Positions 509 to 48,196 of a stretch of 64,000 nucleotides of DNA are shown piece by piece. The stretch's first letter is position 1. Each line of letters begins with the position of its first letter. The translations under genes and the position numbers were made by a program. The stretch is from contig NZ_CP083663.1 of the NCBI RefSeq assembly GCF_020097815.1, positions 1,612,001 to 1,676,000 on the forward strand, given 5' to 3'. The notes beneath the pieces were generated by a model, which saw nothing but the letters and a program-made list of their open reading frames with translations, was not told the DNA's origin and searched no databases. The stretch is from Haloprofundus salinisoli. GTDB lineage: Archaea > Halobacteriota > Halobacteria > Halobacteriales > Haloferacaceae.

Positions 509-802
509 TCACTCCTGCATAACGATGATGTCGCCTTCGGTGACGAACTTAGCAACCGCGACCGTCGAGAGGAACGCGATAATCGCGAGGACGAGACTGA
601 CGGTCACGAAGAGGCCCCGGCCGGTCTTGATGGCGAACAGGACGGCGATGGCGACGACGTTCGTCGCGATGGCGTCCAATGCGACCACGCGGTCGGGGAT
701 CGTCGGGCCCAGGACCGCGCGGTAGCCGCACAGCAGATTCAGAAGCACTACGAGGACGATCGCGGCGTCTACTACCGGCACTATCGTCCCCTCAGCGACC
801 AT
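509..802 (-). CDS. mnhF: Mrp/Mnh Na+/H+ antiporter subunit F
   Basis: A small membrane protein (97 residues) with three transmembrane helices. The MrpF motif GPTIPDRVVALD follows the first helix. It is part of the Mrp antiporter. The ATG at 802 is chosen; a GTG nine bases upstream (811) would add three residues. The start overlaps the end of mnhE by 11 bases, so the two are probably translationally coupled. Confidence 0.93.
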   Translation of the reverse strand: MVAEGTIVPVVDAAIVLVVLLNLLCGYRAVLGPTIPDRVVALDAIATNVVAIAVLFAIKTGRGLFVTVSLVLAIIAFLSTVAVAKFVTEGDIIVMQE

Positions 803-45547: not shown

Positions 45548-45599
45548 CCCGACTCCCGAGTACTGGTGGACTGATTACGGGGGCCCGCGAACGGGGGGT

Positions 45600-46322
45600 A
45601 TGGACGGCGCGTTCGAGGCGTACCTCGCGGCCGGCGGCGTCACCTTCGACGACGACGACGTCGAACTGCTCCGAGCGGTCGACGACCACGGTTCGGTCAG
45701 CGGTGCCGCCGCCGCCCTCGGCCGCTCGCGGGCCCGCGCGCTCTCGCGGCTGGAGACGCTCGAATCCGCCTTCGGCTCGCTCGTCGAACGCCGACGCGGC
45801 GGGGCCGACGGCGGCGGGAGCGAACTCACCGACGAGGCCGGAGCACTGCTCGACCGGTTCGCCCGCCTGCGCGCGGCGCTCTCGGGGACGACGGGCGCGC
45901 GCGAGGCGGTCCTCTACGGCCGAATCGCCAGCGTCGACGGCGAACTTGGTATCGTGGACACGGACGCGGGGTCGGTCCGCGCGCTCGTCGTCGACGCCGA
46001 GGGGCGGTTGGTCCGAGGAGTCGACGCCGGAACGCCGGTGCAGGTGGGGGTCCGCGCCGACGCCGTCACGCTCCACGCGCCCGACGATGCGCCCCTGTCG
46101 TCGGCGACGAGCGCCCGAAACCGCTTCGACGGCGTGGTCTCCGACCTCGACGCCGGCGAGACCGTCGCCACCGCCGTCGTCGACATCGGGACGAAGCCGC
46201 CGCTGTTCGCGCTCGTGACCGCCGAGAGCGTCGAACGCCTGGGGCTCGCCGAAGGGGCAAGCGTCGTCGCGTCGTTCAAAGCCACGGCGACGCGAGCAAC
46301 GGTGGTCGACGACGAAAAATAG
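45600..46322 (+). CDS. ModE-like regulator with TOBE domain
   Basis: A 240-residue protein. The N-terminal 90 residues are a LysR/ModE-type winged helix (DDDDVELLRAVDDHGSVSGA then AAALGRSRARALSRLETLE), and the C-terminal part has TOBE-like repeats (ARNRFDGVVSDLDAG and LFALVTAESVERLGLAEGA). ModE binds molybdate or tungstate and represses transporter genes. It lies 52 bases after tupC and is the natural regulator of this cluster. The two TOBE segments look degenerate. Confidence 0.87.
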   Translation: MDGAFEAYLAAGGVTFDDDDVELLRAVDDHGSVSGAAAALGRSRARALSRLETLESAFGSLVERRRGGADGGGSELTDEAGALLDRFARLRAALSGTTGAREAVLYGRIASVDGELGIVDTDAGSVRALVVDAEGRLVRGVDAGTPVQVGVRADAVTLHAPDDAPLSSATSARNRFDGVVSDLDAGETVATAVVDIGTKPPLFALVTAESVERLGLAEGASVVASFKATATRATVVDDEK

Positions 46323-46334
46323 GGCTCGGACGCG

Positions 46335-47192
46335 CTACAGTTCCGCGACCAATGACTCTAGTTCCTCGCGCACCTCGTCGTCCACGGGTTGGTGCGGCGC
46401 GCGGGCGTAGCCGGCGGGCGCGCCGCGGGCGCGCATCGCCGCCTTCAGTCCGGGGACGCCGTGGACCGCCGTCACCGCGCGGTTCAACTCGACGAGACCG
46501 GCGTTCAGTTCGCGCGCCCCCTCGGTGTCGCCCTCGCGGTGGCGCTCGTATATCTCGGCGCAGGCCTCGGGCGCGACGTTCGCCAGACCCAAAATACCGC
46601 CGTCGGCACCCGCGTCGAGCGCGTGCGCGGCGACGCTGCCGGCACCGACGAAGAACTCGAACTCGTCGCCCGCCAGTCGACGGGTGCGGCCGAACGCTTC
46701 GAGGTTCCCGCTCGAATCTTTCATGCCCGCGACGTTCGGGTGGTCGGCCAGACGACCCGCGGCCTCCGGCGAGAGCGCGACGTTCGTGTACGGCGGGACG
46801 CTGTAGAGGTACACCGGAATCTCGGCGTCGTCGGCCACCTCGCGGTAGTGCGCCTCCAGCGCCGCCTCGTCGTGCGGGAAGTAAAACGGCGTGACGACGA
46901 GCGCGCCGTCGGCACCCGCGTCGGCGGCCAACTGCGTCTGTCGCTTCGTTTCGCGCAGGCCGGGATGGCCGGTGCCGGCGAGCACCGGCACGGAGGCCTC
47001 CCCGACGACGAGCTCGACCACGCGGGCGCGCTCTTCGGCGCTCATCAGTTCGGCTTCGCTGTTCGACCCGCAGGGGACCAGAAAGTCGACGCCGCGGGCT
47101 TCGACCCAGCCGACGAGTTCTCTGAGCGATTCCTCGTCGAGGTCGCCGTCTTCGGTGAACGGGGTCGCAAGCGGCGGTCCGATTCCTTCCAT
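46335..47192 (-). CDS. DapA-family class I aldolase
   Basis: A 285-residue TIM-barrel protein of the dihydrodipicolinate synthase / N-acetylneuraminate lyase / KDG aldolase family. Features are PPLATPFTEDGDLD at the start, VPCGSNSEAELMS, VVTPFYFPHD, LYSVPPYTNVALSP (catalytic Tyr) and AGMKDSSGN (Schiff-base Lys about 160). The substrate is not set by sequence: lysine synthesis or a sugar-acid aldolase are both possible. A TATA-like ACAATTT 20-30 bases upstream suggests a leaderless transcript. Confidence 0.9.
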   Translation of the reverse strand: MEGIGPPLATPFTEDGDLDEESLRELVGWVEARGVDFLVPCGSNSEAELMSAEERARVVELVVGEASVPVLAGTGHPGLRETKRQTQLAADAGADGALVVTPFYFPHDEAALEAHYREVADDAEIPVYLYSVPPYTNVALSPEAAGRLADHPNVAGMKDSSGNLEAFGRTRRLAGDEFEFFVGAGSVAAHALDAGADGGILGLANVAPEACAEIYERHREGDTEGARELNAGLVELNRAVTAVHGVPGLKAAMRARGAPAGYARAPHQPVDDEVREELESLVAEL

Positions 47193-47521
47193 AGCGACCG
47201 GTCACGCGCGGCGAAATTGTAGCTTTGGGTCGGGGTCGCACGGTCCGCTTTCTCGGCCGTCGCGCAGAGAACGCCTCAGGGAGACGAAACGTCCGAATCC
47301 GGCGTCGTACGACAGTCGCACGCCCGTCTGACGCGGGTTTAAGTCGGTCCACAGGCACCGTTCATCCGGGCGCGTAGACGGCATCTGTTCCCATCCTCCC
47401 ACCCGTTCGCGCCCGGATGCACGCCGAACCCCACCCGACTGCATCCGAGTTCGCTCCGGACGGTCGTCCCCCGCGGCCGACTCCGGGCGAACGTACCGCG
47501 TTTTCGCCGTCGCGACTCGAC
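47193..47521. other. Intergenic region with candidate structured RNA
   Basis: 329 bases without a protein gene. The aldolase promoter is at the left end. The centre carries a TATA-like box on plus and three segments that can pair in two exclusive ways (47338-47447). The rest shows nothing notable. Confidence 0.65.
47338..47447 (+). ncRNA. Candidate small RNA with alternative hairpins
   Basis: TTTAAG (47338-47343) is TATA-like. CATCCGGGCGCG (47363-47374) is perfectly complementary to CGCGCCCGGATG (47408-47419), a 12-base stem with a 33-base pyrimidine-rich loop. CGGATGCA (47414-47421) is perfectly complementary to TGCATCCG (47440-47447). The two stems share bases 47414-47419 and exclude each other. 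Direction is inferred from the TATA box; the function is unknown. Confidence 0.4.
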
Positions 47522-48196
47522 TCAGGCGCTCTCGACAGCCGCGTCTCCGAGTAGATGTCTGCGAACGTCTTCGAGCGACTCCTGTTCGACGATGAGCGCG
47601 ACTCTGTCGCCTGCTTCGACGGTCGTCTGCGGTAACGGAATCGTCATCGCCTCCCGGTCGTTGCCGTGAGCGTAGATGCGGGCGGTCGACGGCAGGTCGA
47701 TCTCGCTGGCGCGCTTGCCGACGACCGGCGAGCCGTCGGGGATAGTGACCGCCGACAGCTGGAGGTTCTCGGTGAGTTCGCCGATGGCGTTGAAGTTCCC
47801 ACCCAGGAGGGCGGTCTTCGCGCCCGCCGCGCCGAGTCGTTCGGGGTAGATTATCTCGTCGACGTCGTCGGCGTACTCCTTGTAGATCTCCTCGCGGTAG
47901 TCGGCGTCGATGCGGAGGACGGTCCGGCAGCCGTGTTCTTTGGCGATCATGCAGACCGCGTAGTTCGTGTTCAGATCGCCCGTGATGGCGCCGACGGCGA
48001 CGACATCGTCCAGTCCGGCGCGCTCCAAGACGGCCTCGTTGCTGCCGTCGCCTTCGATGACCTCGAATCCGGATTTTCGGGCGCGCTCGACTTTCTCCCG
48101 GTTGTTCTCGACCAGTACGACCTCGTGGCCCTCCTCCTTGAGGATGCGCGAGGTTCGAGAGCCGACCCGGCCGTACCCAACGATAACGAATCGCAT
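47522..48196 (-). CDS. trkA: TrkA family potassium channel/transporter regulator
   Basis: A 224-residue protein with a TrkA-N (RCK) Rossmann domain (MRFVIVGYGRVGSRTSRIL; second motif VVLVENN, Asp/Glu for NAD) and a C-terminal TrkA-C domain (VVGKRASEIDLPSTARIY, PQTTVEAGDRVALIV). It would gate a K+ transporter or channel. No transporter subunit is adjacent; the membrane protein upstream is unrelated in sequence. Confidence 0.92.
   Translation of the reverse strand: MRFVIVGYGRVGSRTSRILKEEGHEVVLVENNREKVERARKSGFEVIEGDGSNEAVLERAGLDDVVAVGAITGDLNTNYAVCMIAKEHGCRTVLRIDADYREEIYKEYADDVDEIIYPERLGAAGAKTALLGGNFNAIGELTENLQLSAVTIPDGSPVVGKRASEIDLPSTARIYAHGNDREAMTIPLPQTTVEAGDRVALIVEQESLEDVRRHLLGDAAVESA

Follow-up and report, generated by a model that had tools for sequence, protein, structure and literature searches.

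A predicted small RNA gene with a C-rich loop, widespread in haloarchaea and probably orthologous to HVO_1885s of Haloferax volcanii

Small RNAs that carry a C-rich loop are found in bacteria, for example in the staphylococcal Rsa family with its UCCC motifs, for which targets are proven. In haloarchaea, many mRNAs are without Shine-Dalgarno sites. The sRNAs studied to date in Haloferax volcanii are mostly described as poorly conserved (PMC3956466 Table 5; PMC6560208). The closest described system is HVO_1885s (Liao et al. 2021, PMC8406309), listed as an 'RNA with unknown function'. In that paper, it is among 18 CdrS ChIP sites, with the motif at -41, and its RNA is lower (log2 -2.2) upon cdrS-ftsZ2 repression. 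HVO_1885s is apparently activated by CdrS; the published repression hit cdrS together with ftsZ2 and not cdrS alone. The same ChIP list also includes FtsZ1 and a PRC-domain protein. The text consulted gives nothing on the structure of HVO_1885s, on its loop or on its spread beyond H. volcanii.

Other intergenic sRNAs of H. volcanii share single traits with the RNA described here. sRNA132 (PMC6560208) also has its own haloarchaeal promoter, but it is 138 nt long, is encoded at HVO_1405s, is found in Haloferax only and belongs to phosphate starvation. rancRNA_s194, IG1.7/htsf242 and Hts4 (PMC6104027, PMC3956466), the first two of which have C runs, are located at HVO_2011s2, HVO_1933s and HVO_2019s, respectively. 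Identity with any of these was rejected, as they are other loci.

The locus was analysed in a window of 64,000 nt from Haloprofundus salinisoli, i.e. the whole stretch of DNA under study. It occupies an intergenic gap of 329 nt between a DapA-like gene and a gene with TrkA-N and TrkA-C domains, both on the minus strand (Table 1). A tungstate/anion-type ABC operon is found upstream in Haloferax, Halegenticoccus and others, and in Haloferax loci the solute-binding, permease and ATPase genes are directly upstream of the element. The ModE-like and DapA-like genes stand between the ABC operon and the sRNA in the window. In H. volcanii, HVO_1885s is located beside the ABC operon HVO_1886-1888, named as a glucose-specific transporter (PMC3402447), and has a CdrS site just upstream of its promoter (PMC8406309). 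Close Haloferax species carry the element, and aIF2-gamma, which is HVO_1901 in H. volcanii (PMC3828320), lies at the corresponding distance in the Haloferax gene order. Judged by gene order and CdrS site, the RNA in the window is a probable orthologue of HVO_1885s. As an intergenic sRNA with a probable orthologue already annotated in H. volcanii, it is of an ordinary kind. For the class-wide conservation, the fixed architecture and the dyad, no description was found in the main texts of open-licence papers.

Table 1 Features of the putative sRNA locus and its neighbours (positions in the window)
Feature	Position	Strand	Remarks
ModE-like protein, LysR-type HTH and TOBE domain	45561-46322	+	directly after the ABC operon
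DapA-like gene	46335-47192	minus	
Predicted sRNA gene	47315 to ~47450	+	3' boundary approximate
Dyad GTCGCACGCCCGTCTGACG = GTCGCACG-CC-CGTCTGACG	47315-47333	+	probable CdrS binding site, by the motif before ftsZ and a PRC-barrel gene
TATA box TTTAAG	47338-47343	+	nearly every aligned locus has TTTA; distance to the 5' arm is fixed
Inferred transcription start, first G of GGGCGCG	47368, accurate to ~3 nt	+	from TATA spacing
5' arm of the conserved stem, GGGCGCG	47368-47374	+	7 pairs
C-rich loop	47375-47407	+	blocks CGGCATC and TTCCCATCCTCCC
Loop block CGGCATC	47379-47385	+	
Loop core TTCCCATCCTCCC	47388-47400	+	contains CCCATCC
3' arm of the conserved stem, CGCGCCC	47408-47414	+	
Second hairpin GGATGCA/TGCATCC	47415-47447	+	genus-specific; may form part of the RNA's 3' part
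TrkA-N/TrkA-C domain gene	47522-48196	minus	Pfam TrkA_N 7.6e-27; convergent neighbour, outside the RNA itself

To characterize the distribution of the element, positions 47300-47500 were used as a Blastn query. One strong place per genome was found in all five genomes of the genus, with the other four being 86-93% identical to the element of the window, and of 170 family genomes, 73 gave matches. In an alignment of 31 sequences (A1), GTCTGAC, TTTA, GGGCGC, a loop with GTTCCCATCC and CGCGCCC are invariant; the spacer from the TATA box to GGGCGC is not conserved. A covariance model built from A1 (R1) matches 273 of 391 Halobacteria genomes. A second model, R2, built from 56 diverse matches, finds the element in 296 of these 391 genomes and in 71 of 86 genera, usually with a single match per genome. 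Among the matches listed for 148 genomes of the phylum, none lies outside the order (12 genomes with matches, all from the same order), and plasmid and phage collections gave no match to the element. With Rfam release 15 (4227 families), the window yields two tRNAs only at the gathering score, and at E up to 10 nothing relevant was found on the region or in three homologues. The spread over most of the sampled genera together with the fixed promoter, stem and loop indicates strong selection.

In family f1, many genomes of the large genus g21 and some of g12 and g14 give no or weak matches with either model; g21 may have lost the RNA or altered it strongly. Several f3 genomes (g34, g44, g49) have two model matches each, the second of which are possible RNA paralogues or chance matches.

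GGGCGC follows the TATA box's first T by exactly 30 nt in every one of 24 loci, across a spacer that is otherwise not conserved. When the arm is picked by its pairing, 30 nt being preferred, the spacing is 28-31 nt in 71 of 71 loci. Thirty nucleotides is the usual haloarchaeal TATA-to-start distance; in H. volcanii s194 it is 28 nt (PMC6104027). Given the fixed spacing, transcription very probably begins with GGGCGCG, at 47368, or only a few bases from there. An earlier note on this DNA had named the same TTTAAG as TATA-like, and its predicted start near 47360 was close to the position given here. The start is also compatible with the published motif-to-TSS distance of -41 of HVO_1885s (PMC8406309). 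In the window, the 10th base of the dyad is 44 nt, not 41, before this start, which means a shift of about 3 nt in either the motif frame or the start.

The conserved stem consists of 7 pairs, with 99.7% of cells paired among 56 sequences on a model-based alignment (A3). In the same 56 sequences, 3 of the 7 pairs show changes on both sides, and compensated arms include GGACGCG/CGCGTCC and AGGCGCG/CGCGCCT. The covariation score is above 500 of 500 shuffles and is lost when the partners are slid. Pair counts were taken from A3 because a MAFFT alignment of divergent cores (A2) is partly out of register in the stem; A3 leans towards structure, and the changed arms are nevertheless readable in the raw sequences. 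The compensatory changes that the earlier note had proposed to look for in both of its stems are thus seen in the first, whereas the second hairpin, common to the five genus genomes, has no conservation at the family level. Taken together, an own TATA promoter with a start at about 47368 and a GC-rich stem holding a C-rich loop are almost certainly features of this locus, as judged from the comparative evidence.

Both stems of that note are present, the first formed by CATCCGGGCGCG (47363-47374) and CGCGCCCGGATG (47408-47419), with arms extendable to 16 nt at 94%, and the second by CGGATGCA (47414-47421) and TGCATCCG (47440-47447). By themselves, such stems are weak evidence, and a 12-bp repeat is not rare in this GC-rich window. 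Perfect 12-bp inverted repeats with a spacer of up to 60 nt occur three times in the whole window, against 1.2 +/- 1.7 in simulations, and perfect 8-bp repeats with a spacer of up to 30 nt occur 159 times against 115 expected. Compared with its shuffles, the 123-nt region has a more favourable fold (z = -3.24; 1/200). It is the conservation of the region that rules out chance.

The stems had been regarded as mutually exclusive, which suggested a two-state RNA switch toggling on a signal between 47363-47374/47408-47419 and 47414-47421/47440-47447. As drawn, they do have the six bases 47414-47419 in common, and a longer fold that includes upstream bases favours the first stem. However, the outer five pairs of this stem (47363-47367/47415-47419) are upstream of the inferred start and hence outside the transcript, and within the genus the five outermost 5'-arm bases vary (CATCC, CATTC, TACTC, CAACC). 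With a start at 47368, the overlap falls to at most one base, and folding of 47368-47450 forms the conserved stem and the second hairpin side by side, likewise in all five genus members. The idea of a switch therefore fails. The second hairpin is moreover outside the conserved family core and no plus-strand gene follows that could be controlled, so toggling is very unlikely. The other part of the earlier proposal, a gene for a structured non-coding RNA that is driven by a plus-strand promoter of its own and is not the leader of a neighbouring gene, is borne out by the comparative evidence and by the convergent orientation of the next downstream gene. A riboswitch or cis leader was rejected on the same grounds, as there is no same-strand gene downstream. 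A C/D box guide RNA was likewise rejected, since inspection by eye showed no C box (RUGAUGA) in the listed cores and the D box sequence CTGA in some loci only.

The loops are 49% C. CCCATCC is present in 67 of 71 loci, and the spacing between the two conserved loop blocks varies. In L067, L075, L082, L154 and L161 (some Halobellus, Halogeometricum and others), extra or different sequence is located between the 5' arm and the loop core; therefore, the 5' half of such loci is missed by simple pattern searches. Read on the minus strand, the majority of loci have GGGAGG-ATG-GGA, like a start codon with a Shine-Dalgarno site, as would be expected of a small protein-coding gene. Loop indels are not multiples of three, though, with loop lengths out of frame (27, 20 and 24 loci for mod 0, 1 and 2), no promoter was recognised on the minus strand, and the plus-strand core is without ATG, GTG or TTG in 65 of 71 loci. 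The chance of a coding function is close to nil.

A dyad is found just upstream of the TATA box. Its GTCTGAC is invariant in 59 loci, and the form GTCnnnCGnnCGTCTGACG emerges from base counts. In the genus, the 19-nt dyad pattern also precedes ftsZ (assigned by Pfam Tubulin and FtsZ_C and by NCBIfam ftsZ) and a PRC-barrel gene. The pattern occurs in a handful of places per genus genome, and the reversed control pattern in none. The motif and the matching published targets support, without proving, the assignment of the dyad as a CdrS site. The ribbon-helix-helix cell-division regulator CdrS would thus bind next to the TATA box and activate transcription, which is highly probable, and the RNA level would then track ftsZ1 and other CdrS targets.

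As a whole, the locus is best explained, with reasonable though far from full confidence, as encoding a CdrS-activated, trans-acting small non-coding RNA orthologous to HVO_1885s. Transcribed from its own TATA promoter from about 47368 on, this RNA would open with the GC-rich stem and present an unpaired C-rich loop with the core CCCAUCC(UCCC). Its constant loop could pair in trans with G-rich stretches of target mRNAs and adjust their expression within the CdrS growth and division programme, a tentative step for which the odds are slightly below even. Since the loop's complement resembles GGAGG-ATG, pairing with ribosome-binding sites suggested itself. The hairpin resembles the staphylococcal Rsa type in exposing an unpaired C-rich motif like an anti-Shine-Dalgarno sequence, and the RNA may work like these without being a member of that family. 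Rsa-type RNAs, in contrast, are bacterial and have proven targets, whereas no target of the haloarchaeal RNA was found in the searches made. A 17-mer complement of the loop occurs nowhere but in the gene itself, and an 11-mer complement has few other sites, none of them at gene starts shared across the genus. At 210 gene starts (~400 kb of one genome), there was no excess of pairing over shuffled loops, and start regions paired no better than internal regions. The best pairing site, at an HpcH/CitE-like gene (assigned by eye), has -35.3 kcal/mol, a value reached by 14 of 300 shuffled loops (~5%).

As no pairing target was found, a protein partner is a serious alternative. The C-rich loop of a CdrS-activated RNA could dock or sponge up a protein, e.g. 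an RNA-binding regulator. The loop core is nearly invariant class-wide, which is more than expected of a seed with changing targets. A rigid protein site, however, fits less easily with the variable spacing of the two loop blocks, and no protein partner is known; overall, docking is given perhaps a quarter of the weight and is rather unlikely.

In 35 of 40 divergent loci, the trkA-like gene follows downstream in convergent orientation, and in some loci the inferred start is just 54-80 nt from the 3' end of trkA. Both would be in line with a cis antisense or interference RNA acting on this gene. Yet the inferred start lies anywhere between 54 and 1266 nt from the trkA-like gene, and five fetched loci retain the RNA although no trkA was found in them, which makes a cis role less likely. 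Overlap with trkA would also leave the conserved loop unexplained, and this reading is improbable. The hairpin is likewise downstream of trkA on the minus strand, where it could be a terminator or 3' UTR hairpin of that gene. This is scarcely credible, as the CdrS-like dyad, the TATA box and the fixed 30-nt spacing on the plus strand would be left without explanation, and a search found no terminator-like site.

The RNA is absent from Rfam, although no fewer than 71 of the 86 sampled genera have it, with promoter, stem and loop all fixed. The RNA might be a core member of the CdrS regulon across haloarchaea, linking division to post-transcriptional control by its C-rich loop, which is conceivable but on the doubtful side. 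If true, cells may require the RNA to grow normally or to keep a normal size. CdrS regulates ftsZ1 and ftsZ2, and such a link would make an RNA arm of archaeal division control testable in H. volcanii.

At locus L036, positions 567-618 (+) match the C/D-box family sR1 weakly (24.3 bits; gathering score 45), possibly an unannotated guide RNA. Each Haloprofundus genome has several CdrS-like dyads, common to the genus, among them those at G000:C1:650280, 666540, 1155477, 1707285 and 2421100 (L175, L190, L195; orthologues L191, L189). Judging by the motif, the genes of unassigned function that have such a dyad, besides ftsZ and the PRC-barrel gene, may be additional CdrS targets.
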